DNA of 35,898 nucleotides, from positions 1 to 35,898 of the forward strand of contig JAJDZH010000081.1 in the NCBI GenBank assembly GCA_022824725.1, in the 5' to 3' direction. Origin of the DNA: Thermoanaerobaculia bacterium. Its GTDB lineage: Bacteria; Acidobacteriota; Thermoanaerobaculia; Multivoradales; Multivoraceae. Made by a program: the position numbers and the translations under genes. Below are positions 1,365-19,340 of this stretch, piece after piece. The notes below the pieces were generated by a model, which saw only the letters and a list, made by a program, of their open reading frames with translations, searched no databases and had not been told where the DNA came from. Numbering within the stretch: position 1 is the first letter of the stretch; every line of letters begins with the position of its first letter.

Positions 1365-1480
1365 CGCGGCAGGATGGTCCGGAGGCCGGCGCTCCGCGCC
1401 GGATGCCGGCGAGGGCGCCGGCGCACCCAGTGTGGCGTGTTGTCTTCAGATGCCGGCGGGGACGCCGGCGCACCCAGTGG
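1365..1480 (+). repeat. Interspersed two-hairpin repeat, locus 1 (two terminal units)
   Basis: It starts immediately after the patatin stop with CGCGGCAGGATGGTC (1365-1379). Hairpin 1 is CCGGCGC-TCC-GCGCCGG (1386-1402). Hairpin 2 is GCCGGCG-AGGG-CGCCGGC (1405-1422) followed directly by GCACCCAGTG (1423-1432). A spacer containing TTGTCTTCAGA leads to a second unit, GCCGGCG-GGGA-CGCCGGC plus GCACCCAGTG (1452-1479). The same architecture recurs near 4.4, 15.6 and 19.3 kb. It lies between convergent genes and may also act as a bidirectional transcription stop, although no T-tract is present. Confidence 0.85.
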
Positions 1481-1492
1481 GAAGTGGATCGC

Positions 1493-2554
1493 CTACGCGA
1501 TCGTGATGTCCTCGCAGAGGTAGACGTCCTGAATGTGGTTCAGAAGCTCCACCCCCTCCTCCATCGGCCGCTGGAAGGCCTTGCGGCCGGAGATCAGTCC
1601 CTGGCCGCCGGCGCGGCGGTTGATCACCGCGGTCCGGACCGCGGCCGCCAGGTCGCCGGCGCCGCCGGAGGAACCGCCGGAGTTGATCAGCCCGACCCGG
1701 CCCATGTAGCAGTTCGCGACCTGCCAGCGCACGAGGTCGACGGGATGGTCGGACACCAGGTCGCTGTAGACCAGGTCGTGGGTCTTGCCGAAGCCGACCG
1801 CCGGGTAGCCGCCGTTCTTCGTCGCCTGCTTCTGCTTGACGATGTCCGCCTCGATCGTCACGCCGATGTGGTTCGCCTGCCCGGTCAGGTCGGCCGAGTC
1901 GTGGTAGTCGACGCCGTCGACGACGAAGGCGCTGTTTCGCAGGTAGCACCAGAGGATGCAGGCCATGCCGAGTTCGTGCGCCTGCTGGAAGCACTCGGCG
2001 ATCTCGACCAGTTCCTCGCGGCAGACGTCGGCGCCGAAGTACACCGTGGCGCCCACCGCCGTGGCGCCGAGGTCCCAGGCCTGCTCGACCTGCGAGAAGA
2101 GGACCTGGTGGTACGTATGCGGGTGAGTCAGGCTCTCGTTGTGGTTGAGCTTGACGATGAACGGGATCCGGTGCGCGTAGCGGCGGCCGATGCTGCCGAG
2201 CACGCCCAGGGTCGAGGCGACGCCGTTGCAGCCGCCCTCGACCGCCAGCCGGATGATGTTCTCGGGATCGAAGTAGATCGGGTTCGGAGCGAACGAAGCG
2301 GCTCCCGAGTGCTCGATGCCCTGGTCCATGGGCAGGATCGACACATAGCCGCTGCCGCCGAGACGGCCATGGCCGAGCAGACGTTCCAGGCTCGCCAGGG
2401 TGCGGTTGTTCCGGTCGGATGGCCCGAACGCCCGGTCGACGATGTCGGGCCCGGGGACGGTCAGGTGATCCTTCGGGATTCCCGTGCAGACGTGTCCGAG
2501 GAGGCTCTCCGCCTCACTGCCCAGCAGTTCTTCGATGCGCGCGATGTCGGCCAT
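1493..2554 (-). CDS. fbaB: Fructose-bisphosphate aldolase class I (DhnA/FbaB type)
   Basis: A 353-residue protein that reads like E. coli FbaB from end to end. It would cleave fructose 1,6-bisphosphate to dihydroxyacetone phosphate and glyceraldehyde 3-phosphate in glycolysis/gluconeogenesis. Family landmarks are [25 protein letters not shown] and GANCYMGR-like C-terminal phosphate-binding segments; the Schiff-base lysine sits in ADIVKQK. Length matches the family (about 350). The ATG at 2554 has a strong AGGGGAG Shine-Dalgarno 6-7 nt upstream. It is separated by 79 nt from the Nudix-like gene and has its own TAGAAT -10 candidate, so it is probably a separate transcription unit. Confidence 0.95.
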
Positions 2555-2596
2555 GTTCTCCCCTGGTTCAGAGACCCGGCGGGTCGGATCGGGCGC

Positions 2597-2602
2597 ATTC
2601 TA
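2597..2602 (-). promoter_or_regulatory. Candidate -10 box for fbaB
   Basis: On the minus strand TAGAAT lies 42 nt upstream of the fbaB ATG, giving a leader of about 35 nt that contains the AGGGGAG ribosome-binding site. No convincing -35 hexamer is visible at 16-18 nt spacing, so this is a weak call. Confidence 0.35.
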
Positions 2603-2633
2603 GGAGCTTGCGCCGCGGAACGCTACGTGTGAG

Positions 2634-3212
2634 TCAGTTCAAGCTGGCGGCCGGCGCCTCCCGCACCGCTTCCGGGCGCTCCAGCAGCTCCAGGAGCTGG
2701 AGCAGCACATCGAGGGCCGGCCCCCACAAGCGGTGCCGCCCGAGGTGGTAGACGGCGAGCGGCACCTGCTGCCCCTCGATCTCGAACGTCCGCTCCTCCA
2801 CCAGCCGGGGGTGCCGCAGCGCGGAAAGCGGGAGCCGCACGCCCGGCGCCTCCGTGTTGCTGCCGTCGTCCTCGGGAGACGGAACCGCGACCACGCATGC
2901 CCGCATCCTGAAGCCGCCTCTGCCGCCGACCTCGTCCAGCTCGCCGAGCCGGAGAATCCGCGACGGGTCGACGCCGAGACCGACGCTGCCAAGGCGCGCC
3001 ACGGTCGGCCAGGGGTCGTCGCCCTCGAAGGCGGCGGCCGGGAAACTGAGCGGAGGCGACTCGTTCGGCTCTTCCCGCAGCACCGTCCAGAGTTCGGCCG
3101 ACTCGACGTACAGAGGCACGACGACCGCGACGCTGGCGCCTTCGCCGCCCGGCGCCGCGGGCAGCCGCTTCGACCCCTCGAGACGCCGTTGAATCTGGAG
3201 GATCCAACTCAC
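2634..3212 (-). CDS. Nudix-fold protein of the CoA-pyrophosphatase type, catalytic box lost
   Basis: A 192-residue protein whose layout follows the NUDT7/YeaB CoA diphosphatase group. It has an N-terminal VAVVVPLYV strand, a FP..FEGDDPW segment where the Nudix box should start, a LGELDEV loop, the PLSAL segment, and the C-terminal HRLWGPALDVLLQLLELL that corresponds to the family's H-x-I-W-G-x-T end. The Nudix box itself is ruined: the GG after FP is AA, and the R-E-x-x-E-E-x-G-U core reads ARLGSVGLGV, with all catalytic glutamates gone. It is therefore probably non-enzymatic. GTG start overlaps the upstream membrane-protein stop (GTGA, 3209-3212), so it is translationally coupled. Family assignment is by motif layout only. 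Confidence 0.6.
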   Translation of the reverse strand: MSWILQIQRRLEGSKRLPAAPGGEGASVAVVVPLYVESAELWTVLREEPNESPPLSFPAAAFEGDDPWPTVARLGSVGLGVDPSRILRLGELDEVGGRGGFRMRACVVAVPSPEDDGSNTEAPGVRLPLSALRHPRLVEERTFEIEGQQVPLAVYHLGRHRLWGPALDVLLQLLELLERPEAVREAPAASLN

Positions 3213-5152
3213 GGAACCGACCCTATCCCCAGCACGTGGGTCGACGCTGGATCGTCGCCTCCGTCCAGAGTCAGACCCAGTCGAAACAGGTCGACGGACC
3301 CGTTCGACCACCACATCCGGTGGCGCGCTTCGGGTGCGCCCAGGAGCAGGCGCACCGACGTTCGACCCGACGGAAGAAACCTGCTCTCCTCGACTTCCCC
3401 GCCCACGACCTCCAGGGTCGTGTCCTCGCGCTCCAGGAGAATCCGGAGCCGCGGCCGACCCACCTCGCCGTCCGTTTCCCGGCTGGCGGGCGCGGCCGGT
3501 TCCCACGCGACGAGAAACTCCGCCGAGCCGCCTTCGACCAGGAGCCCCGACTCCCCGAACGGAGCGATCCTGCCCGCAACGGGCCGCAGCCAGACGCCGC
3601 CGGCGAAGAGCTCCGCCGGTTCTCCGGCCCGCGGACGCTGGCCAGTCTCCACCGCCAGGAAACGGTGCAGTGCACCCTCGGCCGCCGGGGACGGCCCGAA
3701 CGCCGCGGCGGGCCGCAGCCAGAGCGGGTACAGGAAGAGAGCCGAAGAAGCGGCGACCGCGGCGATTTTCGCCAGTCGCAGCCGGCCGGCGAGGAACCAG
3801 AACATCGGAAGAACGGCGCCGACCCCGCCGGGACCGCGAAGCACGGACTCGTCGCCGAGGTCGAACGGGAAGAGAACCAGGCGGGCTGCCAGCGACGCGA
3901 GACCGCCGAGCAGGAGCGTCCGCCGCCAGCCAGGGGCAAGCAAACCCCAGAACGCCGCCGCTACGAGGGGTACGCCGTAGGGAACGATCCCGACGGTCCG
4001 GCCGGCGACTCCGTGCAGCAGAGTCTCCGGACCCGCGCCGCCGGCCCGGAACTCGGGACCGGACCGGGTTCGCTCGGCGCCGCCGGCTGGTAGCGGGTCG
4101 AGACGCCACTCCTCCGCCTCGAAGTCGACCGCCGGAAAGCCGGTCGAAGGACTGAACACCGCCCGCTCCACCGGTCCGAAGCCGCCGCGGGCGAGCGCCG
4201 ATGTCCCGAACGATGCGCCGGCGGTCAGCACCGCCGTCACCGCGAGGGCAAGGAAGGCGGCTTCCCGCCGCGATTGCGCAAGGGCCAGCCAGGCGGCCGC
4301 GATCAGGGCCGGCAACAGGGTCAGACCGTCGACGGAGGCGAGCGTGGCGAGCGTGAGCAGGAGCCCGACGAGGGACCACCGGAGAGCCGCGGAGCGAAGT
4401 GGTCGCCGGCCTTGCGGCCGGCGCGGCTCCCTGGCCGCCTCCGGCGGCAGCCGGCGGGGGCGCCGGCGCACCCAGTGGGAAGCGGCCTGCGAAAGGCGGC
4501 GCACCCAGTGGGAAGCGGCCTGCGAAAGGCGGCGCACCCAGTGGGAAGCGGCCTGCGAAGGACGGGGCGCCCAGTGGGAAGCGGCCTGCGAAGGACGGCG
4601 CGCCCGGTCGGTAATCGGCATGACATGTACAACCAGAGCCCAGGCCAGGGCCGATGCGGCGAGGCGGAACGTCCCCGGCGATGGCAGCGGCAACAGGGTG
4701 AAGGCCGTCGTGCCGGCGACGAACACGGCGATCCAGGCCGGCGCCCAGGGACCGACGCGCCGCTCGAGCACCAGAGCCGAGCCGGCCGCCGCAACCGCCA
4801 GCAGCAGGCAGTTCAGCAGCGCCGGCCCCCACCGGGGAGAGATGCGGACGAACGGCGCCGCCAGCACGGCGTAGACCGGCGGCCGCCCGAAACCGATCCG
4901 GGCGCCGCCGGTACTGCTTTCCAGGGCGACTGCCTCAGGCTCTCCCCCGAAGAGCCGGACGTAGCGGTCGTAGTCCGCGCGGCCGTAGGTGAGGTCGCCA
5001 TCCCAGGCCAGACTCAGCGCCGCCATGCGGAAGGTGGTTTCCCGCTCCCCGGCGTCGAGGGCATCCGACCGCATCGTGGACGTGAACAGGGCGAGCAGCA
5101 GTCCGGCGAGCAAGAGCCAGGACCACCGCCGCCCGACCGTGCCTTGGATCAC
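3209..5152 (-). CDS. Polytopic membrane protein, GT-C glycosyltransferase-like
   Basis: A 647-residue integral membrane protein with about ten hydrophobic segments, the first at residues 11-27 (LLLAGLLLALF). The first periplasmic loop has MAALSLAWDGDLTYGRADYDRY followed by GRPPVYAVLAAPFV, the layout of GT-C-type lipid-linked sugar transferases of the ArnT/PMT kind; the acidic residues there could be catalytic, but substrate is unknown. The C-terminal about 180 residues are soluble and beta-rich. GTG start at 5152 overlaps the glycosyltransferase stop (GTGA) and its own stop overlaps the Nudix-like gene, so the three are coupled. Odd: a cytoplasmic-type loop near residues 180-235 is built from 11-residue repeats (PSQAASHWVRR) encoded by an expanded intergenic repeat. 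Confidence 0.72.
   Translation of the reverse strand: MIQGTVGRRWSWLLLAGLLLALFTSTMRSDALDAGERETTFRMAALSLAWDGDLTYGRADYDRYVRLFGGEPEAVALESSTGGARIGFGRPPVYAVLAAPFVRISPRWGPALLNCLLLAVAAAGSALVLERRVGPWAPAWIAVFVAGTTAFTLLPLPSPGTFRLAASALAWALVVHVMPITDRARRPSQAASHWAPRPSQAASHWVRRLSQAASHWVRRLSQAASHWVRRRPRRLPPEAAREPRRPQGRRPLRSAALRWSLVGLLLTLATLASVDGLTLLPALIAAAWLALAQSRREAAFLALAVTAVLTAGASFGTSALARGGFGPVERAVFSPSTGFPAVDFEAEEWRLDPLPAGGAERTRSGPEFRAGGAGPETLLHGVAGRTVGIVPYGVPLVAAAFWGLLAPGWRRTLLLGGLASLAARLVLFPFDLGDESVLRGPGGVGAVLPMFWFLAGRLRLAKIAAVAASSALFLYPLWLRPAAAFGPSPAAEGALHRFLAVETGQRPRAGEPAELFAGGVWLRPVAGRIAPFGESGLLVEGGSAEFLVAWEPAAPASRETDGEVGRPRLRILLEREDTTLEVVGGEVEESRFLPSGRTSVRLLLGAPEARHRMWWSNGSVDLFRLGLTLDGGDDPASTHVLGIGSVP
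4401..4610 (+). repeat. Two-hairpin repeat, locus 2, expanded into a 33-bp tandem array inside a CDS
   Basis: Hairpin 1 GCCGGC-CTTGCG-GCCGGC is at 4405-4422; hairpin 2 GCCGGCG-GGGG-CGCCGGC is at 4450-4467, followed by GCACCCAGTG at 4468-4477. From 4468 the end of the element is iterated with an exact 33-nt period: GCACCCAGTG or its variants start at 4468, 4501, 4534, 4567 and 4600. Each unit has the form GCACCCAGTGGGAAGCGGCC plus TGCGAAAGGCG. Because 33 is a multiple of three, the minus-strand membrane-protein gene stays open and encodes 11-residue repeats. Confidence 0.9.
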
Positions 5153-6795
5153 AGTGCGCGGTCGAAGGCGGTCGCGCCGCAGAGCGTCATCGAACCGCCG
5201 CCGAAGAGGTGCGGCTCGAAGCGGAGCCGTGCCCGGCCGATCGGTCGCCGGAGCTTGAGGGAGATCCGGCACGAGTCGCCCGGCGGCAGGTCCCGCGGCA
5301 GCGGAATCCACGGCCTGCCCCGGAACAGGTCCCGCCCACCGCTCCAGAGCTGGGGCTCGAGCACGACGCCGCCGTCCTGGTTGTGGCCCGAGAGCCAGGT
5401 GGCGAAGCCCGTGTTCGCCACGACGAGCTCGATCGAACGACGCTCGCCATCCGGCCAGGGCGGGTCGCAGCCCTCCACTTCGATCCGCCCTGGCAACCAG
5501 CCCCAGGTCAACGAGGTGGGTGCTGGCGGCTGCTGCGGCGGCGGCGGGGGCCGCTCCCCGGCCGGAGCGCGCGACCACTCGTCCAGAGCCTCGAAGACAG
5601 CCCGCGCCACCGACGCCGGCCGGTGCTCGCGTTCGACAAAGGCTCGCGCCGCGGCGCCCATCCCGGCGAGCCGGTCCGGCGCGGCGAGAAGACCCCGCAG
5701 CAGGGACGCGAGCGCGCCGGCCTCGGCGCCCGGATCGTCCTTGAGCGGAGCCTTGAGCACGATGTCGTCCGGCAGTTCAACGAACTGGGCGTAGTCGGAG
5801 ACCACCGCGGCCCGGCCCAGGGCGAGGATGCGAAGCAGCGAGGCCGAGGTTTCGCCCGCGCTCGGGTAGCGCAGGTTGAGGCAGAGGTCGCAGGCGGCGA
5901 TGGCGGTCGGGAACGACGCCGCGTCGAGGAAGCCGGCCATCGTGACCCGACCCTGGACCCCCAGGTCCCGGGCCAGGGCGTCGAGATCGAGTTCCGGCGC
6001 GACATCTCCCACCACCAGCGCGTGCGCCTGCTCCATCCCCGGCTCGGCGAGTACGCGCAGCAGCACGTCCGTGCGTTTGATCGGCGTCTGGAAGCCGAAA
6101 GAGCCGATCAGGACCGCCGAGCGAGGAACGCCGGCTCGCCGCCGCCAGGCCGCCGCCTGCTCGGGCCCGGGTAGAGCGGGCGCCGGCATCGGCATGGGCA
6201 CCCGGCGCATCGGCGGCAGCCGGCCCCCGGCCCGCCCCGACTCCTGGCCCAGCTCCTCCTCGAGGAACCGGAGACCCCAATCGCTATGGGTCAGCAGGCC
6301 GCGCTGCCGGAGCAACAGGGAGCGGTGCGCCGGCATCTCGAACAGCCGCGCCCGGCCGTGGCCGCCCCAACGGATCGACAGCGCCGCGGCCGCGCCCTCC
6401 CAGCCGTGCTCCTCGCCGAGGCCGCTGACGTAGGCGTCGAGATCCCCGGAGGCCAGGGTCGATTCGACCAGCAGGTGGTGCAGGCGCAGGTCGTGCACGG
6501 TCACCACCCCCGGGGAATCCAGGGCGAGCCGGCGGACGCCCTCGTGGTAGACGTTGTTGCCCATCTGGTAGAAGGGCAGGCGTCCGGCCGGGTCGAGCGC
6601 CGCCGCGTCGACCACCGGGTATCGGTCCAGGACGTGGGACGCGATCTCCTGCCCAGGCAGGCGGACCAGGCGCAGGTCGCAGAGCGGTGCAAGTTCGTCG
6701 AGCAGGTCGACGCTGTAGTCCGCGATCCCCGACCTGACCGGAGGCAGCGGCGACACGAAGTCGACCGCGGGGGCGCTGCTAGGACTGGCCGGCAT
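5149..6795 (-). CDS. Glycosyltransferase family 4-like, with C-terminal beta-sandwich domain
   Basis: A 548-residue predicted cytoplasmic glycosyltransferase. The N-terminal half begins FVSPLPPVRSGIADYS, typical of GT4 donors/acceptor domains, and contains TVHDLRLHH. The second Rossmann domain starts IGSFGFQTPIKRTDVLLR and holds GETSASLLRILALG, the position of the family's E-x7-E/nucleotide-sugar site, followed by VVSDYAQFVELP. After a proline-rich linker (near residue 415) comes an about 115-residue beta-rich domain with VANTGFATW and LPPGDSCRISLKLRRP, an Ig/NBR1-like sandwich. The ATG at 6795 lies 17 nt inside prfB; upstream in-frame residues are low-complexity and not conserved. It is probably involved in surface polysaccharide or glycolipid synthesis together with the membrane protein downstream (inference). 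Confidence 0.8.
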   Translation of the reverse strand: MPASPSSAPAVDFVSPLPPVRSGIADYSVDLLDELAPLCDLRLVRLPGQEIASHVLDRYPVVDAAALDPAGRLPFYQMGNNVYHEGVRRLALDSPGVVTVHDLRLHHLLVESTLASGDLDAYVSGLGEEHGWEGAAAALSIRWGGHGRARLFEMPAHRSLLLRQRGLLTHSDWGLRFLEEELGQESGRAGGRLPPMRRVPMPMPAPALPGPEQAAAWRRRAGVPRSAVLIGSFGFQTPIKRTDVLLRVLAEPGMEQAHALVVGDVAPELDLDALARDLGVQGRVTMAGFLDAASFPTAIAACDLCLNLRYPSAGETSASLLRILALGRAAVVSDYAQFVELPDDIVLKAPLKDDPGAEAGALASLLRGLLAAPDRLAGMGAAARAFVEREHRPASVARAVFEALDEWSRAPAGERPPPPPQQPPAPTSLTWGWLPGRIEVEGCDPPWPDGERRSIELVVANTGFATWLSGHNQDGGVVLEPQLWSGGRDLFRGRPWIPLPRDLPPGDSCRISLKLRRPIGRARLRFEPHLFGGGSMTLCGATAFDRAL

Positions 6796-7904
6796 CGGGA
6801 GTTTCGAGCTGCTGGCCCAACCAGGCGTCGATGAACGGATCGAGCTCGCCGTCGAGCACCTTCTCGACCGCCGACACCTCGAGCCTGGTCCGGTGGTCCT
6901 TGACCATGCGGTACGGGTGCAGCACATAGCTGCGGATCTGGGAACCGAAGCCGATCTCCATCTTCTGGCCCTCGCGCTCCGCCTGTTCCTCGCGGCGCTT
7001 CTGCACTTCCCGGTCGTAGAGCCTCGCCTTCAGGATCTTCATCGCCATCGAACGGTTCTTGATCTGGCTGCGCTCGTTCTGGCAACTGACCACGATGCCG
7101 CTGGGCATGTGCGTGATCCGCACCGCGGAGTCCGTCACGTTCACGTGCTGACCGCCGGCGCCGGACGACCGGAACGTGTCGATCCGGATGTCCTTGTCCT
7201 CGACCTCGATGTCGATGTCGTCCTCGACCTCGGGATACGCGTAGACGGAAGCGAACGACGTGTGGCGCCGCTTCGCCGCGTCGAAGGGCGAGATGCGCAC
7301 CAGGCGATGGACACCGCTTTCGCCGCGCAAACGGCCGAAGGCGTACTCGCCCCGCACCGCCACGGTCGCGCTCTTGAGCCCCGCTTCCTCGCCGTCCAGC
7401 CGCTCCAGCAGCTTGACGTCGAAGCCGCTCTGCTCGGCCCATCGCAGGTACATCCGCAGGAGGATCTCGGCCCAGTCCTGGGAATCCGTGCCCCCCTCCC
7501 CGGGATGAATGGCGAGCAGGGCGCTGCGGTCGTCGTCTTCCCCCGAGAGCTTGAGTTCCAGGTCGAGCTCTATCGATTCGCGCCCGACCCGGTCGATGAA
7601 GGAACCGAGCTCGGCGTCGTCCTCGGCGCCCGGAGCATCCTCGGCCAGCAGTTCGAGCCAGGCCTCGATCTCGTCCCGGTCCGCGTTCAGCCGTTCCACG
7701 GTCTTCCGCCGCCGTTCGAGAGCGCGTCGACGGCGCAGCAGCGGAGCGCTCTTCCTCGGCTCGTCCCAGAAGCCCGGCTGCTGCATCTCGTGATCGAGTG
7801 CCGCTAGCTGCTCCTCGAGCTCCGCCGGGTCAAAGATACCTCCGAAGGCCGTCCAGACGGTTCTTCAGATCGGAGAGCGAGCGGTTCGCGTCAGCGGCAA
7901 TCAT
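6779..7904 (-). CDS. prfB: Peptide chain release factor 2, expressed by +1 programmed frameshift
   Basis: RF2 terminates translation at UGA/UAA. The full protein is 374 residues: 24 codons from the ATG at 7904 to an in-frame TGA (7832-7830), then +1 into the frame beginning GAC at 7831, which gives DPAELEEQ and runs to a TAG at 6779. Visible RF2 landmarks are the stop-codon tripeptide SPF (ISPFDAAKRRH), the peptidyl-hydrolysis loop SSGAGGQHVN, and the RF2-type N-terminus NRLDGLRRYL. A gene model that begins at a later ATG would miss the first 40 or so residues. The ATG overlaps the lnt stop (ATGA, 7901-7904), and its 3' end overlaps the glycosyltransferase gene by 17 nt. Confidence 0.96.
7829..7844 (-). 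promoter_or_regulatory. prfB recoding site (SD-like GGAGG, CTT-TGA-C slippery site)
   Basis: On the minus strand the codons read CGG AGG TAT CTT TGA C. This has the SD-like GGAGG, a 3-nt spacer, the P-site CUU that can slip to UUU, and a weak UGA stop with a following C: the same arrangement as the autoregulatory RF2 site of E. coli. Low RF2 makes ribosomes pause at UGA and slip +1, raising RF2 synthesis. Confidence 0.95.
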
Positions 7905-9424
7905 CGGCGCAGTATGGCAAAGCCCGCGAGCGCCACGCAAAGCAGAGGCACGAGCAGCGGCGCGCGGGCGAAGGGAGTCATGCCGCCAAGCGGAACGACC
8001 TGCGCCCTCATGACCATCGCCTCGCCGATCGGCGAGTCGGCCAACACCCGGCCCCGCCGGTCGATCACGGCCGAGATGCCGGTGATCGCGGCCCGGACGA
8101 GCGGCCGGCCGTTCTCGGCCGCGCGGAAACGGGCGGGTCGCAGATGCTGGTGAGGCGCCCAGGTTCGGCCGTACCAGGAGTCGTTCGTGATCGTGACGAG
8201 GAGGTTCGCTCCGCGCCGCACGCGCGCCGCGACCTGCTCCGGAAAGACGATCTCGAAGCAGATCGACACTCCCAGCACGGCCCCGTCCGCGTCGAGGAGG
8301 CGTACCTCGTCGCCGGGAGAGAAGCCGCCGGCCTGGCGCGCCAACTGGCGTACCGCCGGCAGATGGCGGCCGAACGGCACGTACTCGCCGAAGGGAACGA
8401 GGTGCATCTTGTCGTAGGTCTGGCGCCGGGCGCGGCCCGAACCGGGCGTCAACAGATAGGCCGCGTTGAACGCCCGCTCCTCCGGAGCCGACCGGTCCCA
8501 GCGCGCGCTGTTGAGCAGCAGGGAGCAACCCTCGCCAACGACTTCCTCGAGATCGCCGGCGAACGTGCCGTCCCGTTCCACCTGGTACGGCCAGCCGGCG
8601 CTTTCGGGCCAGACGACGAGGCGCCCGGGTTCGCAGGCCTCCCGGCTGAGCGCGAAGAGCCGCTCCTGGTTCGAGGCGAGGTCGGCGAACTGGTCGTCGG
8701 GGCCACCATCGACCATCGCCGCGGTCGCCATGTGGATGTTGGGCTGCACCACCGCCACGTCCAGGCGGCGTTCGTCCCCGGGCGGCCGATCCAGGTTGGT
8801 CCAACGCGCGATCGACAGGATGGCCGCGACCGCAACCAGAACCGCTGCCGCTCCGCGGCGCCTCTCCCGGTCAACGAGGAGAAACAGGGCGAGAGCGGTG
8901 GCGGCGACCAGGAACGAGAGGCCCCAACTTCCGATCCAGCGGGTCGCGTCGAGAGCCCCGGGGACGTCCACCCAGGCGTACGCGAGCAGGTTCCACGGGA
9001 ACCCCGAGGGGCCGAGCCCGCGAACCCACTCCAGAGCGACCCAGATCGCCGGCGCGAGCAGCAGGGACAGCGCATCGCCGCGAGCGAGCAGCCTGCCCGC
9101 GAGCCAGCAGAACAGGCCGTGGTAGAGCCCCAGGTAGAGCGCCAGCAGACCCAGGAGCAGCGCCGACGCGAAGCCGGGCAGACCACCGTAGATCTCCAGC
9201 GTGCCGGCGATCCAGGGCACCGCGACCAGCCACGCCACCAGGCCATGCAACCACCCCAGCAACAGGCGGCGCAATGAACCGCCCGGTACGGCGGCGATGG
9301 CGAACACGGGTACCGCCGCGGCGAGCGGCAACAGCAATCCGGGGCGCTGATCGAAGCAGTACGCCCACCAGACCCCGCCGCCCGCGCTCAGGGCGAGTTG
9401 AAACCAGAGCGACCGGAACGGCAA
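7901..9424 (-). CDS. lnt: Apolipoprotein N-acyltransferase
   Basis: A 507-residue inner-membrane enzyme that N-acylates the diacylglyceryl-cysteine of lipoproteins, the last maturation step in diderm bacteria. The N-terminal about 200 residues form six or so hydrophobic helices (for example LLLGLLALYLGLYHGLFCWLAG). The C-terminal nitrilase domain has the catalytic glutamate in VVWPESAGWPY, the lysine in YDKMHLVPFGEYVPF and the nucleophile cysteine in SICFEIVFP, so the Glu-Lys-Cys triad is complete. The first listed start is TTG at 9424, 50 nt after the SPOR gene; the exact start is uncertain. Its TGA overlaps the prfB ATG, so the two are coupled. Confidence 0.95.
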   Translation of the reverse strand: MPFRSLWFQLALSAGGGVWWAYCFDQRPGLLLPLAAAVPVFAIAAVPGGSLRRLLLGWLHGLVAWLVAVPWIAGTLEIYGGLPGFASALLLGLLALYLGLYHGLFCWLAGRLLARGDALSLLLAPAIWVALEWVRGLGPSGFPWNLLAYAWVDVPGALDATRWIGSWGLSFLVAATALALFLLVDRERRRGAAAVLVAVAAILSIARWTNLDRPPGDERRLDVAVVQPNIHMATAAMVDGGPDDQFADLASNQERLFALSREACEPGRLVVWPESAGWPYQVERDGTFAGDLEEVVGEGCSLLLNSARWDRSAPEERAFNAAYLLTPGSGRARRQTYDKMHLVPFGEYVPFGRHLPAVRQLARQAGGFSPGDEVRLLDADGAVLGVSICFEIVFPEQVAARVRRGANLLVTITNDSWYGRTWAPHQHLRPARFRAAENGRPLVRAAITGISAVIDRRGRVLADSPIGEAMVMRAQVVPLGGMTPFARAPLLVPLLCVALAGFAILRR

Positions 9425-9474
9425 CCACCGCCCCCCGTTCCGCGGAGTTCCCCGCGGGCCGACCGGGCGGGCGT

Positions 9475-12271: not shown

Positions 12272-12278
12272 CGCCAAC

Positions 12279-12284: not shown

Positions 12285-12304
12285 CTTGACGGCAAGCGGC
12301 AAGA

Positions 12305-12381: not shown

Positions 12382-12515
12382 TCGCACCAGGTCCGCATGA
12401 CGCGCTCCGCGCCGTACGCGAACCAGTTCGAGCGTCCGTCATCGGGCGCGCGAATGGCACGCCGCAGAATACGGTTCCCCAGCCCGGAAGTCCAGCGTCC
12501 GCCACCGACCGGAAA

Positions 12516-13292
12516 CTAGCCGGCGGGGTTCTGCTCCGGGACGGAGATCACGATCTCCTCGTCGTCGCCCGCTCCGTGCTCGAAGGGCTCGTCGTTCACT
12601 TCGATCGTCGTCACATCCACGCTGCTCAGGGTGAGCCGCACCTCCTCGTCGGCCGCGACGGTGAGCGACTCCCCCTGCACCCGCAGCTCGCTGACCGTTC
12701 GATCGCCGTCAACGTAGACGTCGACCCAACTCGTCCCCTGGAACTCCATCGTGACCCGCAAGGCACGCTCCGGCAGCGGCTCGGCCGGCGGCAGTTCCGG
12801 CGCCGTCTCGGTCAGCGGGGGGGCCATCGTCTCCACGTCCTCACCGGGATCCCGGTCCAGGGCGGTAAGCCAGACGATGGCGGCCGCGACCACTGCAAGA
12901 CCGACGAGGATCGCCACCGTTCGTCCGACCAGCCAGGTCGACGCAGGGCTTCCGCCCGTTTCCGAGGACCGCTCATACTCGCCGCCCGCGGAAGCGACAC
13001 GATAGAAGTTGAGGACTTCGTCCGCATCGAGGCCGACGATGCGGGCGTACTCGCGCAGGAAACCCCGGACGAAGATGGAGGCGGGAAGGAGGTCGAAACG
13101 GTTCTCCTCCAGCAACTCCAGGTAGCGGATGTTGATCTTGCTGGACTGCGCGATCGCCTCCAGATCGACGCGCCGAACCTCGCGCTGGCCGCGGAGCCAG
13201 GATCCGAACGACTCCCGTTCGACCCTGGCCTCGGGCGCCTGGTCCTGCTCGGACGCCTGACGTTCCTCAGGCGCCGGCTTCTGCTCGCTCAT
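12516..13292 (-). CDS. RodZ-like helix-turn-helix membrane protein
   Basis: A 258-residue bitopic protein. After a charged N-terminal 27 residues comes an HTH_25-type domain (FGSWLRGQREVRRVDLEAIAQSS ... FVRGFLREYARIVGLD), a membrane helix near residues 130-152 (VAILVGLAVVAAAIVWLTAL), an acidic/proline linker, and a C-terminal beta domain of the DUF4115 type (WVDVYVDGDRTV). This is the RodZ layout; RodZ links MreB filaments to the elongasome. No mreB is in the window, so function is by architecture. The ATG at 13292 has AGAGG about 9 nt upstream, and TACAAT (13331-13336, minus) is a plausible -10. The gene is divergent from the greA-type gene. Confidence 0.85.
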   Translation of the reverse strand: MSEQKPAPEERQASEQDQAPEARVERESFGSWLRGQREVRRVDLEAIAQSSKINIRYLELLEENRFDLLPASIFVRGFLREYARIVGLDADEVLNFYRVASAGGEYERSSETGGSPASTWLVGRTVAILVGLAVVAAAIVWLTALDRDPGEDVETMAPPLTETAPELPPAEPLPERALRVTMEFQGTSWVDVYVDGDRTVSELRVQGESLTVAADEEVRLTLSSVDVTTIEVNDEPFEHGAGDDEEIVISVPEQNPAG

Positions 13293-13462
13293 TTCGCCGC
13301 CTCTGCCCAGCGTGGCATACCCTCCGCGCCATTGTACTCCGTGAAGAGCTCACTGGCCGCGGACCCCTCCACACCTGCCGCGGCTGATACCATCATCGGC
13401 CTTGTTGACGCACCGTTGCCGCGGGCGCGCTCCACGGACGCCCAGGCAGCGCCGGCTACCGC
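13293..13462. promoter_or_regulatory. Divergent promoter region between rodZ-like and greA-type genes
   Basis: This 170-nt gap holds a minus-strand TACAAT (13331-13336) that would give the rodZ-like gene a leader of about 32 nt. It also holds a plus-strand extended -10, TGATACCAT (13385-13393), which would give the greA-type gene a leader of about 60 nt. Neither has a clear -35 hexamer. Confidence 0.35.
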
Positions 13463-15538
13463 ATGAGGATCCCGCAAAGCACTCAAGACAGCCTGGCGCG
13501 CGGTGACATCGACGCAGTAGAGGCGGACTGGCTGGCCGCGATCGAAGGCGATCTCGACGTCGAGCAGTTCCTCGCCATCACCAAGGGCCTCGTCCGGCTG
13601 GGTGAAGAGGATCGTGTGGGCACGCTCCTCGAGCTCCTCGACGACCAACTGCGGGAACGCGGCATGTGGGCCGCGCGCCTGGATCTCGTCCGCGGCGCCG
13701 CACACTACTTCGTGCGCAGCGGACAGGTCTACGACACCGTTCTGGACACCCTGCACAAGCTCTACCGCGACCGCGAATCCGACCTGGCCGACCTGCTCCA
13801 GGATCTCCATCTCGATCAGGGACGGCAGCACGCGGACAAGCTCTGGGACAAGGTGGACCGGCTCCGCAACCTGCTGGCGTTTCGGCCTGGCGACATCGTG
13901 GAAATGGAGGGCCGCGGCGTCGGCCGGATTGCCGACGTCAACATGCCGCTCCACGTCTTCAAGGTGGACCTGGAGAAGGTGAAGGGAGTGTCGGTCGGAT
14001 TCCGGGCAGCCGGCAAGATGCTCAGACTGCTGCCCGAAGGACACGTGCTCCGCCAGAAGCTGGAGGAACCGGAGCAGCTCGAAGGACTCAAGCCCACCGA
14101 GCTGCTCGAACGAACGCTCAAGAGCTACGACCGGCCGCTGACCGGCGCCGAAGTCAAGGTGATCGTCGTCGGCATCATCCCCGAGCGCCGGTGGTCGAGC
14201 TGGTGGACCAGCGCGCGGAAACAGCCGCAGGTGCTGTCCTCCGGCGGCCCGCGCCAGACCTACCAGTGGCTCGAGGCAACGGACGCGGAGGAGTCGCTGT
14301 GGCGCGAGTTCCAGGCCGCGCCAAACCGCCAGAAGGTCGGGCTCCTCCGGCGGGCGGCCAACCAGTCGCAGGAACTCCGCGGGCGGATGGCGGAAGCGCT
14401 CGATCGCCTCAGCCGCGCACTCAAGGACGCTCAGCCAGCGCTTGCCTTCGAACTCCGCTACGCCCTGGAGCGCTTCGGCGCCGAGCCCTCCTGGCCGGCC
14501 GAGGACCTGCTGAGGAACCTGCCGGACCCACTCGAGTTCTTCGCTTCCGTCGAGCAGCGCGCCGCCCGTGAACAGGGCTACGCGTTGCTCCCGGCCTGCA
14601 GGGACGACTGGCTCGACGTGCTCGAACGACGCTTCCTGCTGGAATCCGACACGAAAGCGATCGACGCGATCGCCGCGGTGCTGGAGGCGGAGACGCTGAG
14701 CCGCTGCGCCGCCCGTGCGCAGGTCCAGCCTCACCGCACCCCCGCGGCCTTTACCTGGCTGGTCGAACGGGCCGCTTCCGAGCCGGCGCTGCGGCAAGGT
14801 CGCCAGAGCCGCCTCCTGAACCTGCTGATCCAGGCACTGCGACACGAGGCCTTCGCACCTTTCCGGGCCCGAATCAAGGCCCTGTTCGACTCCGGCGGCA
14901 CGGCGCCCAGGCTCCTTCCGGAATTGACTCTCGACGAGGCCCGCCAGGCGGAGGTCGCGATCCGTCACGCAGCGCTCGAGGACTACCGTCGGGAACCGCT
15001 GCTGGCAGCTCTCCACCTGAAGTTCCCCGACCTTCAGGCCGACCAGGAAACCGTAAGCGACGATCTCTACGCGCTGCCGGCGTCGATCGAAGCGCAGCGC
15101 GAGAAGCTGAGGGAACTGGTCGAGGAGGAGATTCCGGCCAATCGCAAGGCGATCGAGGAGGCGCGGGCCATGGGCGACCTGCGCGAGAACTTCGAATACA
15201 AGTCCGCGCGGCAGCGCCACGAGTACCTCACCGCCCTGGCGACCCAACTGCAGCAGGACCTGCAACGCTCGGCGCCGATCGACATCGCGGGCGCGGCCTG
15301 TGACCGCCTGCGCATCGGCAACCAGGCAACGTTCGAGTCGGACAGCGGCGAACAGCGCACCCTGGCCATCCTCGGCCCCTGGGAAAGCGCGCCGGAACGG
15401 GGCATCATCTCGTACGAGTCGGACCTCGCCGGCCGTCTGCTCGGATCGGAGCCGGGAGCGAGGGTGGAGCTGGACGGCGAGACCTTCACCCTGCGCACGA
15501 TCGAGGCGGTTCCCGCCGCCAGCGTCGAGCCGGCCTAA
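13463..15538 (+). CDS. GreA/GreB-type transcription elongation factor with long helical N-terminal extension
   Basis: A 691-residue protein. Residues from about 545 to 690 are a complete Gre factor: an N-terminal coiled coil (REKLRELVEEEIPANRKAI ... SARQRHEYLTALATQL) with the conserved tip MGDLRENFEY bearing the acidic Asp and Glu that position Mg2+ in the RNA polymerase active site, and a C-terminal FKBP-like domain. Gre proteins rescue backtracked RNA polymerase by stimulating transcript cleavage. The first 540 residues are mostly alpha-helical, with a small beta insert near 140-180 (FRPGDIVEMEGRGVGRIADV). Stand-alone GreA is about 158 residues; a comparably long GreA (about 715 residues) is known in Chlamydia. 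Start ATG 13463. Confidence 0.88.
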   Translation: MRIPQSTQDSLARGDIDAVEADWLAAIEGDLDVEQFLAITKGLVRLGEEDRVGTLLELLDDQLRERGMWAARLDLVRGAAHYFVRSGQVYDTVLDTLHKLYRDRESDLADLLQDLHLDQGRQHADKLWDKVDRLRNLLAFRPGDIVEMEGRGVGRIADVNMPLHVFKVDLEKVKGVSVGFRAAGKMLRLLPEGHVLRQKLEEPEQLEGLKPTELLERTLKSYDRPLTGAEVKVIVVGIIPERRWSSWWTSARKQPQVLSSGGPRQTYQWLEATDAEESLWREFQAAPNRQKVGLLRRAANQSQELRGRMAEALDRLSRALKDAQPALAFELRYALERFGAEPSWPAEDLLRNLPDPLEFFASVEQRAAREQGYALLPACRDDWLDVLERRFLLESDTKAIDAIAAVLEAETLSRCAARAQVQPHRTPAAFTWLVERAASEPALRQGRQSRLLNLLIQALRHEAFAPFRARIKALFDSGGTAPRLLPELTLDEARQAEVAIRHAALEDYRREPLLAALHLKFPDLQADQETVSDDLYALPASIEAQREKLRELVEEEIPANRKAIEEARAMGDLRENFEYKSARQRHEYLTALATQLQQDLQRSAPIDIAGAACDRLRIGNQATFESDSGEQRTLAILGPWESAPERGIISYESDLAGRLLGSEPGARVELDGETFTLRTIEAVPAASVEPA

Positions 15539-15553
15539 GGCCGCCGAAGCGGG

Positions 15554-15622
15554 GCCGGCTTGGCGGCCGGCGCGTGTATCGGCGGCAGCGGGTCAGAAGA
15601 CCCGCGCACCCAGTGGCGAAGC
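15554..15622 (+). repeat. Two-hairpin repeat, locus 3 (stem-divergent copy)
   Basis: Hairpin 1 is GCCGGC-TTGGCG-GCCGGC (15554-15571). Hairpin 2 is GCGGGTC-AGAA-GACCCGC (15588-15605), followed directly by GCACCCAGTG (15606-15615). The 7-bp stem with 4-nt loop and the 10-nt foot are the same as at the other loci, but the stem sequence differs with both sides changed together. The tail GGCGAAGCGGCC resembles the start of the 33-bp unit at locus 2. It lies between the greA-type gene and gatC. Confidence 0.85.
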
Positions 15623-15642
15623 GGCCTCCAAGTAGCTGTAGC

Positions 15643-15651
15643 TGCTACACT
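15643..15651 (+). promoter_or_regulatory. Extended -10 promoter of gatC (probably leaderless)
   Basis: TGCTACACT (TGn plus TACACT at 15646-15651) ends 9 nt before the gatC GTG. A start site about 7 nt downstream of the box leaves a 5' leader of only 2-3 nt, and no Shine-Dalgarno is present. A short inverted repeat, GTAGC-N7-GCTAC (15632-15648), overlaps the box and could be an operator. Confidence 0.45.
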
Positions 15652-15660
15652 TATAGCGAA

Positions 15661-15978
15661 GTGTCTCTAGGCGTCGAAGAGGTTCGGCGGATTGCCGAAC
15701 TGGCCAGACTGCGGATCTCGGCCCGCGAAGAAACCACGTTCGCGAGTCAGCTCTCCGAGATCGTCGACTACATCGATCAGCTCCGGGAGTTCGATGGCGG
15801 CACGGCCTCCCAGGATGACACCCATGCGGCCACCGAGACGGCGGACAGCGACCTGCCCCGTCCCGCAAGTGCGGCAGACGGCGCGCTTCTCGACCAGTTC
15901 CTGGACAACGCGCCCGCGTCCCTCGACCGCTTTCTGCTCGTACCGCAAGTCAAGGCGACGCCGGGCGGCGAAGAGTGA
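15661..15978 (+). CDS. gatC: Aspartyl/glutamyl-tRNA amidotransferase subunit C
   Basis: A 105-residue GatC, the small subunit that wraps GatA and bridges it to GatB in the enzyme that amidates misacylated Glu-tRNA(Gln) or Asp-tRNA(Asn). The N-terminal VEEVRRIAELARLRIS and FASQLSEIVDYIDQLREFD are the family core. The GTG at 15661 is chosen because it gives the normal length; the open frame upstream runs into the repeat element. The TGA overlaps the gatA ATG (ATG 15978, TGA 15976-15978), so they are coupled. gatB is not in this window. Confidence 0.92.
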   Translation: MSLGVEEVRRIAELARLRISAREETTFASQLSEIVDYIDQLREFDGGTASQDDTHAATETADSDLPRPASAADGALLDQFLDNAPASLDRFLLVPQVKATPGGEE

Positions 15979-17435
15979 TGCAGGCGATGACCGCGGAGGG
16001 GCTGGCAGCCGCGATCCGTTCGGGGGAACGGAATGCCGTCGACGCCGTCGAGGCGGCGTTCGCCCGCATCGACGAGGTCGACGCCTCCGTTGGCGCCTTT
16101 CTCGAACTCTGGCGGGATGAAGCGGCCGAGCGGGCCGCCGACATCGACCGGCGGCGGGACGAAGGGTCGCCGCTCGGTCCGCTCGCCGGCGTGCCGACGG
16201 CACTGAAGGACAACATGTCCCTGGCAGGGCACGAACTGAACTGCGGCTCGCGCATCCTGGCCGGTTACCGCGCGCCCTACACGGCCGGCGCCGTCGAGCG
16301 TCTGGTGGCTGCCGACGCCGTGCCCGTCGGTCGGGTGAACATGGACGAGTTCGCCATGGGCTCGTCGTGCGAGAACTCGGCCCTGGCCACGACGCGCAAT
16401 CCCTGGCACCCGGCCATGGCGCCCGGCGGTTCGAGCGGCGGTTCGGCGGCGGCGGTGGCGGCGGCCGAGGCGCCCCTCGCCCTGGGCTCGGACACCGGCG
16501 GCTCGATCCGGCAACCGGCCGCCTTCTGCGGCGTGGTCGGCGTCACGCCGACCTACGGCCGGGTATCCCGTTACGGTCTCGTCGCCTTCGCCTCCTCGCT
16601 GGACCAGATCGGACCGCTCGCCCGGAACGTGCGGGACGCGGCCCTTGCGCTCGGCGCCATTGCCGGCCCCGACCCGCGGGACTCCACGTGCAGTGAAGAG
16701 CCCGCCTGTGACTTCCTGGAACGAATCGAGGACGGCATCGAGGGAGTGAAGGTCGGCACCATTCGCGAGGTCGGCACCTCGGCGCTGGAGAGTGACGCGG
16801 CACGCGGCTTCGAACAGGCGCTCGAGACGCTCGCACGCTGCGGCGCCGAGCTGGTCGAGGTCAGCGTCCCACTGGTCGAAGCCGCGGTCGCCACCTACTA
16901 CGTGCTCGCCAACAGCGAGGCCAGCGCGAATCTCGCCCGGTTCGACGGCAGCCGCTACGGCCACCGCGCCGCCGGCGCCCGGTCGCTCGCCGAGATGTAC
17001 ACCGGCAGTCGAAGCGAGGGTTTCGGCCCCGAGGTCAAGCGCCGGATCATCCTCGGGACCTTCGCCCTGTCCTCGGGCTACTACGATGCGTACTACGGCC
17101 GCGCCGCGCGGATCGCCGGGGCCCTGCGGCAGCAGTTCAGCGAGGCCTTCGACCAGGCCGAGCTGCTGGTGACGCCGACCAGCCCGAGCGGCGCCTTCCA
17201 GCTCGGCGAACGTGTCGACGATCCGCTGGCGATGTACCTCTCGGACGTGTTCACCACGCCGACCAGCCTGGCCGGCATACCGGGAATCTCGGTCCCCTGC
17301 GGCCTCGACAGCCGGGGACTCCCCCTCGGGCTCCAGATCCTGGCGGCGCCGTTCGCCGAGGGCACCGCCCTGCGTGCGGCCCGGGCGTTCGAACGGGAAA
17401 CGGGCTTCGAGTGCCGGCCGGAGGCAGTCCCATGA
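15978..17435 (+). CDS. gatA: Aspartyl/glutamyl-tRNA amidotransferase subunit A
   Basis: A 485-residue amidase-signature protein that releases ammonia from glutamine for tRNA amidation. The Ser-cisSer-Lys triad is complete: Lys in PTALKDNMSLAG, the cis-Ser in APGGSSGGSAAAVAAA and the nucleophile Ser in LGSDTGGSIRQPAAFCG. The GatA-specific MDEFAMGSSCENSA segment is present. ATG at 15978; a GTG one codon earlier is equally in frame. Its TGA overlaps the next gene's ATG (17432-17435), making gatC-gatA-amidase a coupled operon. Confidence 0.96.
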   Translation: MQAMTAEGLAAAIRSGERNAVDAVEAAFARIDEVDASVGAFLELWRDEAAERAADIDRRRDEGSPLGPLAGVPTALKDNMSLAGHELNCGSRILAGYRAPYTAGAVERLVAADAVPVGRVNMDEFAMGSSCENSALATTRNPWHPAMAPGGSSGGSAAAVAAAEAPLALGSDTGGSIRQPAAFCGVVGVTPTYGRVSRYGLVAFASSLDQIGPLARNVRDAALALGAIAGPDPRDSTCSEEPACDFLERIEDGIEGVKVGTIREVGTSALESDAARGFEQALETLARCGAELVEVSVPLVEAAVATYYVLANSEASANLARFDGSRYGHRAAGARSLAEMYTGSRSEGFGPEVKRRIILGTFALSSGYYDAYYGRAARIAGALRQQFSEAFDQAELLVTPTSPSGAFQLGERVDDPLAMYLSDVFTTPTSLAGIPGISVPCGLDSRGLPLGLQILAAPFAEGTALRAARAFERETGFECRPEAVP

Positions 17436-19222
17436 ACGTCCGCGCCTTCCTCCTCGCCGCCGCCGCCCTCGCCGTGCTCCTGCCCGCGGCAAGCGACGCG
17501 GTCACCCGGCGCATGGCCGTGCCGGAGATCGGATCGCCGAGTCCGGTCGCGGTGCTGGCATCCTCCGGCAGTATCCACATCGAGGCGAAGCCACGGCGGA
17601 ACGAAGGCCTGCTGGCATTCGCCGAGCGGCTCTGCGGCAGCGCCCGGCACGCCTCCGCCGTGAGCCGGGCGAACGGCGGCGTCCAGCAGCTACGCCGCGG
17701 CGTGCGCTACAAGGTGCCCTTCGATCTGCTTCCCGCGCGACACCAGCAGGCCGTCATTCGCGCCCTCCTGCCGAGGGATGAGGCCACCGCCGACGGTTGG
17801 CGGCACCGTGTCGCCTCCTCCTCACGCGGCGCCAGGTCGGAGAGCCTGTGGAGCATCGCGGAGTGGTTCACCGGCTCGGGCGAGAACCACGGGACACTGC
17901 GGCGGGCAAACAACCTGACCAGCAGCGTCATCCGGCCCGGTCAGGTCATTCTCATCCCGCGCAACATGCTCTCGGAGCCCTATGCCGGCATGCTGCCCGC
18001 CGCCGCGACCCGTCAGGTCGTCGCGGCGACGGACTCCGGAACCGGTTCCTCCGTCGGCGATGGGCCCTTCGCCCGCTACGGCTCGGACGGGCAGGGCGAC
18101 TACGCCAGCTACCGCCTGAAGGCCGGCGAGGCCCTCTACTCCAGCGTCGTCATGCGCTTCACCGGCCGGCTGCTGGCCAGCGACGTGAACGAACTGGCCG
18201 AGCGGATCAGGAAGCGCAACGCGATCCGCGACGTGCGTGACCTGCCGGTCGGCTACGAGGTCAGGATTCCGCTCGACCTGCTCTCGGCCCGCTATCTGCC
18301 ACCCGATCATCCGCGCCGCCAGGAGTGGGAAGAGCAGCGCTCCGCCTCCCGGCAGATCGAGAACGAGCTGATGGCCCTCGATCTCGACGGGGTCACGGTG
18401 GTGCTCGACGCCGGCCACGGCGGCCGCGACACCGGAGCGCCGGTCGGCGGGCTGTGGGAAAGCGTGTACGTCTACGACATCATGCTGCGCACGAAGCGGC
18501 TGCTGGAGAGCCGCACGGCCGCCGCCGTCGTGCCGACCACGCGGGAAGGCGCAACGTTCCGGATCCAGGACTCCGACGTGCTGCCGCGTTCCCGCGGACA
18601 CGTCGTGCTCACGAACCCCCCCTACCGCATCGACAACGCGGCGGTGGCGACGAACTTCCGGTGGTACCTGTCGAACTCGATCTACCGGCAGCAACGCAGG
18701 GCCGGCGCCGAACCGCGTCAGGTCATCTTCATCTCGATTCACGCGGATTCGCTGCACCCGTCGCTGCACGGCGCCATGGTCTACATTCCCGGTCTGGTCG
18801 GCATCACGAACAACTACGGCAAGTCGGGCAGCGTGTACAACGCCCGCCGCGAAGTCCGGGCCGAACCCCGCGTCTCCTTCACGCGAACCGAACGGACGAC
18901 CAGCAAGGGCCTGTCGCGCGACCTCGCCGAGCACCTGCTCGACAGCTTCCGCCGCGCAGACCTGGGCGTTCATCACAACAACCCGATCCGCGACCGGATC
19001 TGGCGCGGACGCCGCGTCTACGTGCCGGCGCAACTCCGCTTCAACCGGATACCGGCCAAGATCCTCCTCGAGGTCGGCAACCTGAGCAACGATCGGGACC
19101 GCCGCCTGATGAAGACCCGGGCCTACCGGCAACGGGTCGCCGAGGCGATCGTGAACGGCATCCTGTCCTACTACGGCGTGCCGAGCGCGGGCGCGGAGCG
19201 GAGCGTCACCGCCGGAAGCTAG
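17432..19222 (+). CDS. LysM-containing N-acetylmuramoyl-L-alanine amidase
   Basis: A 596-residue exported cell-wall hydrolase. A signal peptide covers residues 1-23 (FLLAAAALAVLLPAASDA). Three LysM-like segments follow near residues 50-95, 135-180 and 225-285; the clearest is SLWSIAEWFTGSGENHGTL ... IRPGQVILIPRNM. The C-terminal Amidase_3 domain has zinc ligands His329 (DAGHGGRD), a Glu in GGLWESVYVYD and His437 (ISIHADS), plus the catalytic Glu547 (LLEVGNLSN). It would cut the MurNAc-L-Ala bond in peptidoglycan. The strand order of the domain is normal, but inserts make it longer than AmiA/C-type amidases. The ATG overlaps the gatA stop. Confidence 0.9.
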   Translation: MNVRAFLLAAAALAVLLPAASDAVTRRMAVPEIGSPSPVAVLASSGSIHIEAKPRRNEGLLAFAERLCGSARHASAVSRANGGVQQLRRGVRYKVPFDLLPARHQQAVIRALLPRDEATADGWRHRVASSSRGARSESLWSIAEWFTGSGENHGTLRRANNLTSSVIRPGQVILIPRNMLSEPYAGMLPAAATRQVVAATDSGTGSSVGDGPFARYGSDGQGDYASYRLKAGEALYSSVVMRFTGRLLASDVNELAERIRKRNAIRDVRDLPVGYEVRIPLDLLSARYLPPDHPRRQEWEEQRSASRQIENELMALDLDGVTVVLDAGHGGRDTGAPVGGLWESVYVYDIMLRTKRLLESRTAAAVVPTTREGATFRIQDSDVLPRSRGHVVLTNPPYRIDNAAVATNFRWYLSNSIYRQQRRAGAEPRQVIFISIHADSLHPSLHGAMVYIPGLVGITNNYGKSGSVYNARREVRAEPRVSFTRTERTTSKGLSRDLAEHLLDSFRRADLGVHHNNPIRDRIWRGRRVYVPAQLRFNRIPAKILLEVGNLSNDRDRRLMKTRAYRQRVAEAIVNGILSYYGVPSAGAERSVTAGS

Positions 19223-19223
19223 G

Positions 19224-19340
19224 CGCGGCAGGATGGTCGCCGCTTCGCGGCGCGTTGTCTTCAGAAGCCGGCGAGGGCGCCGGCGCACCCAGTGTGCCGC
19301 GTCTTCAGAAGCCGGCGAGGGCGCCGGCGCACCCAGTGTG
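19224..19340 (+). repeat. Two-hairpin repeat, locus 4 (two terminal units)
   Basis: It starts 2 nt after the amidase stop with CGCGGCAGGATGGTC (19224-19238), identical to locus 1. Hairpin 1 is CGCCGC-TTC-GCGGCG (19238-19252). TTGTCTTCAGA leads to GCCGGCG-AGGG-CGCCGGC plus GCACCCAGTG (19267-19294), and a second identical unit lies at 19311-19338 (period 44). It separates the convergent amidase and lexA genes. Confidence 0.9.

Follow-up and report, generated by a model that had tools for sequence, protein, structure and literature searches.

What are the short GC-rich palindromes that recur along one contig of a Thermoanaerobaculia bacterium, and to which kind of genetic element do they belong? 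The window analysed here is the whole stretch of 35,898 nucleotides at positions 1 to 35,898 of contig JAJDZH010000081.1 (GenBank assembly GCA_022824725.1). An earlier note, made from its letters, had described a repeat family between positions 1,365 and 19,340 and likened it to repetitive extragenic palindromes (REPs) and bacterial interspersed mosaic elements (BIMEs) moved by RAYT transposases. We are highly confident that the repeats are REPs and paired REPs (REPINs) of a REP/RAYT system in an Acidobacteriota genus, because of their copy number, their compensated pairing, a RAYT gene lying within a REP cluster, the agreement between the RAYT tree and the stems, and the presence and absence of units at orthologous sites.

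Six units in the window share a perfect 7-bp stem, a 4-nt loop and the abutting foot GCACCCAGTG, and each was found exactly where the earlier note had placed it. They form four loci: locus 1 (units 1405 and 1452), locus 2 (4450), locus 3 (15588) and locus 4 (19267 and 19311). The foot has 8 exact matches in the window and 9 with at most one mismatch, a number reached in 0 of 100 window shuffles (mean 2.37, maximum 8 at that tolerance); the exact feet at 4501 and 4534 are part of a 33-bp tandem array (4464–4605) and lack the hairpin. Loci 1 and 4 have a leader and a spacer in common, as had been read before, and both stem arms of unit 15588 are swapped, to GCGGGTC/GACCCGC. Three of the four loci lie between convergent open reading frames (ORFs), namely patatin/DeoC at locus 1, a GreA-GreB-like ORF and an ORF without a Pfam match at locus 3, and amidase/LexA at locus 4. 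Read on the strand opposite to that used earlier, a unit consists of the 5′ head CACTGGGTGC followed without a gap by the hairpin. The supposed 3′ foot is therefore a matter of strand choice, while the accompanying remark that the tag is not GTAG stands: where REPs carry GT[AG]G next to the hairpin or no more than 2 nt from it, these units have CACTGGGTGC.

Throughout the genome (3.72 Mb, 490 contigs) GCACCCAGTG occurs 187 times, compared with 15 occurrences of the reversed, uncomplemented control. The copies divide into 99 forward and 88 reverse, so that the single orientation reported earlier holds within the window and not genome-wide. With an interspersed unit of 28 nt, the family falls among the high-copy palindromes of 20–40 bp known as REPs. 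When the 18 bases before each foot were taken unselected, all seven stem pairs formed in 83 of the 108 own-genome copies read, six in 8 and fewer in 17, whereas random 18-mers from the same DNA gave seven pairs in 12 of 20,000 cases. The stems were GCCGGCG/CGCCGGC (68 copies), GCGGGTC/GACCCGC (15) and GCCGGCC/GGCCGGC (1), and 22 of the feet read lacked a perfect abutting hairpin. Feet near the RAYT genes of relatives behaved similarly (seven pairs in 50 of 63, six in 2, at most four in 11). Further copies that keep the pairing were what the earlier note had made its idea depend on, and they are plentiful.

Covariation was scored on 54 distinct units from the own genome and from relatives' RAYT flanks, chosen by foot only, three of the aligned rows containing gaps. 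The score reached 0.271; shuffles averaged 0.131, and none of 500 came as high. Sliding the pairing partners gave at most 0.135; the count of stem pairs altered on both sides showed no excess over shuffles in this alignment. The proposal that the hairpin fold is selected, first made from the double change at 15588, is supported by the covariation and by the 83 fully paired copies, and stems change with compensation. A census of 121 units with at least six of seven pairs, allowing foot variants and drawn from loci that account for some two thirds of the genome's feet, contained 87 GCCGGCG and 23 GCGGGTC stems. Its 29 neighbour pairs no more than 250 bp apart comprised 20 in tandem, 7 inverted with feet outward (128–170 bp) and 2 inverted inward.

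The whole genome contains a single match to Pfam Y1_Tnp, above the Pfam cut-off, and it lies outside the window on contig C119, the contig richest in feet among the first 100 places listed. The gene (C119:7048–7716) encodes a protein of 222 aa with HVH and Y---NPV motifs, whose closest PDB match is E. coli TnpA_REP (4er8, 4e-4) and which matches NCBIfam REP_Tyr_transpos (NF047646) at 4.4e-22 and 78.5 bits. The cut-off of that model is 80 bits; the RAYTs of two relatives pass it (G010 with 84 and G008 with 82 bits). Contig C119 holds four inverted unit pairs with feet outward, two of which adjoin the gene directly, one before it (168 bp apart) and one after it (169 bp apart). A RAYT gene enclosed by inverted REPs is the arrangement of a REPtron, and a Y1-HUH transposase gene flanked by the foot is what the earlier note had suggested looking for. 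Array-like, foot-only repeats also adjoin this RAYT (L032, about 6889–6974 and 7970–8040).

RAYT genes were detected in 12 of the 21 genomes of the genus, 13 genes in all, and the other nine genomes gave no match. Residues H125, H127, Y184 and N188-P189, the HUH and Y---NP signature, are invariant in all 12 aligned proteins, one gene with an in-frame stop having been left out of the alignment. The RAYT of G003 (L076) has one in-frame TAG, and its flanking REPs appear intact. Published RAYT features include an NP(L/V)(R/K)xG motif and a conserved Thr near the N-terminus (PMC2817692); in the genus NPVxAG is invariant, with T, S, A, Q, K or N at the R/K position.

Units occur on both sides of 10 of the 13 genus RAYT genes. 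Two others (L070 and L071) lie where their contigs end and have units on the side that can be seen; at the last (L074) the unit on one flank is clear and that on the other degenerate. Disregarding hairpins consisting of N, the flanking stems are GCCGGCG, GCCGGCC, GCGGACC or GCGGGTC, and the feet GCACCCAGTG, GCACCCAGAG or GCACCGACA. On a tree of all 13 RAYTs and four outgroups, the four stem classes, set by eye from the flanking units, require three changes, the minimum possible, compared with a shuffled mean of 7.2 (0 of 200 as low); the GCCGGCC class is not clearly a single clade. The two RAYTs of genome G001 differ in class and each adjoins units of its own stem class, so the match between RAYT and stem does not reflect species history alone. 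The likeness to RAYT-moved elements first proposed for the window holds, supported by the sole Y1_Tnp gene among inverted units, by stem classes that track RAYT phylogeny and by presence and absence at orthologous sites.

Feet numbered 15–210 in the 20 other genus genomes compared with 10–22 for the control (G015, G019 and G020 being near background), and 4–23 compared with 10–33 in 20 genomes from other genera. A first covariance model, R1, was discarded because the inclusion of foot-only tandem copies had left it with low information. Its successor, R2, was built from 26 units with at least six of seven pairs and for that reason leans toward paired units. In the scan of genome and relatives foreseen by the earlier note, R2 matched head variants with pairing 27–157 times per genome in 21 of 21 genus genomes, most counts being lower bounds because 150 candidates were scored per genome; in other genera it gave weak matches in 2 of 20 genomes (1 and 9).

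Orthologous sites differ between species. A recognisable unit at locus 1 was present in 0 of 20 relatives, G018 having 134 bp of other sequence there. At locus 4 none was recognised in 19 relatives, and the twentieth, G013, holds a GCGGGTC-class unit; the gap from the amidase stop to the conserved LexA side measures 147 bp in the own genome and 7–12 bp in G003, G004, G017 and G001, where the flanks are 92–98% identical. At locus 3, four relatives (G010, G005, G002 and G008) have shortened-foot GCGGGTC units and three (G016, G001 and G018) keep remnants; nine others show none, and in the four closest (G013, G004, G003 and G017) the absence is clean. Among the 11 of 20 relatives read at locus 2, a similar element is found in G016, G018 and G006, a GCGGGCC-class unit in G004, G013 and G003, and unit-free stretches of 95 bp in G001, 64 bp in G010 and 37–43 bp in G017, G005 and G011. 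Gain, loss and replacement of units all seem to occur.

Several observations weigh against a REP/RAYT system. The own RAYT falls 1.5 bits below the NCBIfam cut-off. Genomes G004, G006, G016 and G018 keep 92–145 feet, yet no RAYT was detected in them; it may have been lost, missed in assembly or replaced. RAYT presence is accordingly a weak predictor of copy number, these being four of the nine RAYT-less genus genomes. In the own genome the only RAYT lies beside GCCGGCG units although two stem classes occur, which speaks against a strict one-to-one rule: another RAYT may have been lost, or the one present may recognise both classes. At locus 3, loss from the closest relatives explains the pattern better than gain, although separate insertions may account for it instead. 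Finally, the orthologous junctions of the loci compared showed no clear or consistent target duplication and no constant cleavage dinucleotide.

Convergent neighbours at three of the four window loci and GC-rich, covarying stems would also suit bidirectional terminators or structured RNAs of 3′ untranslated regions, kept for their RNA fold between convergent genes. A terminator scan of positions 1200–20000 gave 5 terminator-like sites, however, compared with 7.2 in shuffles. Two overlapping rows of that scan coincide with the upstream hairpin of locus 4 (19236–19252), followed by CGTTGTCTTC, and speak weakly for termination; the REP units themselves are not followed by the T run of an intrinsic terminator, and the terminator alternative entertained in the earlier note is not supported for them. 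Within the window Rfam recognises nothing but a tRNA, the elements are absent at relatives' orthologous sites with 92–98% identical flanks, and stem changes track the transposase lineage. This explanation is very improbable, and the units may have an RNA-level role in addition.

A second alternative, also very improbable, is that the copies are miniature inverted-repeat transposable elements (MITEs) bounded by terminal inverted repeats (CTAGCAGTC...), that a DDE transposase moves them and that the REP travels as a passenger. Some copies, locus 4 included, do start with CGCGGCA and end with TGCCGCG, and several leader-bearing copies extend leftward to CTAGCAGTC or rightward to GACTGCTAG. This subset, identified by its GGATGGTC-type leader in a pattern-based survey, makes up only 15 of 125 distinct own-genome contexts (again from some two thirds of all feet), and TGCCGCG directly follows the foot in 6 of the 15. 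A third alternative, in which recombination or gene conversion spread inert relics and the RAYT just happens to lie in an old cluster, would agree with the common tandem duplicates (20 of the 29 close neighbour pairs) and with single sites that hold different stem classes in different species (loci 2 and 4). We give this idea very little credence, as sites are occupied in one species and empty in relatives, and RAYTs agree with stems, including the two RAYTs of one genome.

For the preferred REP/RAYT system, a mechanism can be proposed by analogy with known RAYTs. Most likely, the Y1/HUH transposase encoded on C119 would bind head and hairpin as single-stranded DNA, cleave and rejoin beside them, and copy or move REPs and inverted REP pairs through a single-stranded intermediate into small intergenic gaps. 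Each RAYT lineage most likely serves its own stem class; the assignment of RAYTs to copies is modelled on the same precedents.

The elements in the window (Table 1) consist of one or two inner hairpins plus a REP. The inverted REPs beside relatives' RAYT genes enclose CGCCGGCC-nnn-GGCCGGCG hairpins and a GCCGCCTTCGGCGGC-type hairpin, and the window elements mostly look like half REPINs.

Table 1. Coordinates of repeat-associated features in the window.
Feature	Position	Strand	Remarks
Leader CGCGGCAGGATGGTC, locus 1 element	1365..1379	+	Common to locus 4; comparable leaders precede some other own-genome copies
Upstream hairpin CCGGCGC-TCC-GCGCCGG	1386..1402	+	Comparable module precedes other copies
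REP unit GCCGGCG-AGGG-CGCCGGC + GCACCCAGTG	1405..1432	+	In canonical REP orientation read on the − strand, as head CACTGGGTGC followed by the hairpin
Second REP unit of locus 1	1452..1479	+	Loop GGGA; in tandem at 47 bp from the first
Inner hairpin CGCCGGCC-TTGC-GGCCGGCG	4404..4423	+	Resembles module between inverted REPs adjoining relatives' RAYT genes
Inner hairpin GCCGCC-TCC-GGCGGC	4434..4448	+	
REP unit	4450..4477	+	Loop GGGG; site holds a GCGGGCC-class unit in three relatives
33-bp tandem array	4464..4605	+	4.3 copies; repeats the foot without the hairpin
Upstream hairpin GCCGGC-TTGGCG-GCCGGC	15554..15571	+	Module kept in G016 and G001
REP unit, second stem class, GCGGGTC-AGAA-GACCCGC + foot	15588..15615	+	
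Leader CGCGGCAGGATGGTC, locus 4 element	19224..19238	+	
Upstream hairpin CGCCGC-TTC-GCGGCG	19238..19252	+	Sole part caught by the terminator scan
REP unit	19267..19294	+	Loop AGGG
TGCCGCG	19295..19301	+	Inverted relative to CGCGGCA at the leader start; present in some other copies
Second REP unit of locus 4	19311..19338	+	With the first forms a 44-bp direct repeat

MITE-like ends around a REP, either a left-hand CTAGCAGTC... or a right-hand ...GACAGACTGCTAG/CCAG, were seen at L003, L008, L018, L054, L223, L224 and window positions 19224–19370. The long ORFs 15777–17492 and 2634–5578, beside loci 2 and 3, have no Pfam or NCBIfam match.

The unusual head extends beyond the genus. From 541 RAYT relatives found by an alignment scan, 80 were examined, 7 of them from this genus, the rows not being mutually independent. 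Within 1 kb of these genes we counted perfect 7-bp hairpins with loops of 3–5 nt and an abutting head, using one dinucleotide shuffle per flank as control. GGNNC heads occupied 260 sites, with at least one at 72 and at least two at 58 of the 80 loci, compared with 6 sites and 0 loci with two or more in shuffled flanks. At the same loci GT[AG]G was near background (3, 6 and 8 sites at spacings 0, 1 and 2, compared with 1, 0 and 3 in shuffles); L125 and L152 have three such sites each at spacing 2. A pattern-free count of 5-mers abutting at least two hairpins was led by GGAGC at 22 loci, GGACC at 11 and GGAAC at 8, followed by GGTGC and CGGCA (4 each) and GGTAC and CATGA (3 each). Together, 164 distinct heads give the consensus CTGGGARC followed by GCSGGCS; the two G (−5, −4) and the C (−1) of the head were imposed by the search.

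A check set of 30 other high-scoring RAYT loci of the phylum gave 33 GT[AG]G and 10 GGNNC sites, compared with 0 in shuffles, and most of these loci had neither head type twice. The E. coli rayT control, a single locus, yielded GTAG hairpins by relaxed search and no GGNNC. One locus of another genus of the phylum (L272) has many CGACGGC-stem hairpins with heads TTCGGAGAG (17) and GTCCCGTAG (5).

A quick tree of 89 RAYTs combined 57 of the 80 homologs with the 30 phylum loci and with two hand-labelled entries, E. coli and P0001. The branch with the own genome's RAYT contains 58 rows and has a Shimodaira–Hasegawa-like approximate likelihood ratio (SH-aLRT) support of 99; 47 rows have GGNNC, none GT[AG]G, and 11 no assigned head. 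Among the 29 rows outside an enclosing 60-row branch, 7 have GT[AG]G (the hand-labelled E. coli included), 1 GGNNC and 21 no assigned head. By record label, GGNNC rows come from Acidobacteriota, Verrucomicrobiota, Lentisphaerota, Chloroflexota, Bacteroidota, Planctomycetota, Pseudomonadota and Armatimonadota, plus a Kapabacteria record. Replacement of E. coli Q95 by M as the sole cause of the new head found no support: the 80 homologs have M in 38 cases, A in 12, Q in 9 and other residues in 15, with 6 unread, and the idea is further weakened by a Q-bearing homolog (L114) with GGNNC heads.

We lean slightly toward the following joint claim: in a large RAYT branch that by record label spans at least eight phyla, a GG-N-N-C head (CTGGGARC) abutting a 7-bp GC...GC hairpin with a 3–4 nt loop replaces GT[AG]G, the cleavage-guide rule would differ, and transposase, stem and head diversify jointly at such a pace that systems differ within one genus. 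Published accounts characterise RAYT-linked REPs mainly by GT[AG]G, and surveys keyed to that motif would miss this branch. Species of the genus with differing RAYT stems and heads, and the one genome with two RAYTs, are natural pairs for asking which protein residues recognise stem and head and whether the head steers where cleavage occurs.

Compared with known systems, the family most resembles the REP/REPIN/BIME elements and RAYT (TnpA_REP) transposases of E. coli and Pseudomonas, with which it shares short high-copy palindromes, inverted pairs, inverted REPs bracketing the transposase, a conserved 5′ head and an own REP type per RAYT (PMC2817692, PMC6006769). The TIRYT genes of Acidobacteria (PMC3733652) share the phylum, the HUH/Tyr transposase and flanking inverted repeats; they are described with the motif GGGGWSAS and terminal inverted repeats. 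TnpA_Y1 class 3 (foot CnGA) likewise combines a non-GTRG foot, Acidobacteria and high-copy structures, and is described with a Y----Q motif, unlike the Y---NP of the proteins here (PMC6006769). That survey found no REPs for RAYT subclasses 2.1 and 2.3, and atypical ones for subclass 2.6 and class 3.

Our limited literature search found no description of REPs from these bacteria or of a GGNNC head. Canonical REPs carry GT[AG]G (PMC6006769), GTAG and CGTC superfamilies are distinguished, REPtrons have been lost from some species (PMC3733652), and an altered GTAG motif moves the cleavage sites of one RAYT (PMC8266576). The P. putida head TGTGGGAGC is one base away from the branch consensus CTGGGAGC (PMC2817692). 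P. putida REPs contain GTGG, as do most O. terrae GTAG-20 elements (PMC3733652), whereas GT[AG]G lies inside 3 of the 164 distinct branch heads. The GGNNC head class could be a drifted GTGG head, which lowers its novelty. Unlike the E. coli and Pseudomonas REPs, the units described here bear the head CACTGGGTGC, with GGNNC abutting the stem in place of GT[AG]G, and are accompanied by extra inner hairpins. It is because of the head class that we count the system as a new variant: it is new in its head class, not in kind.

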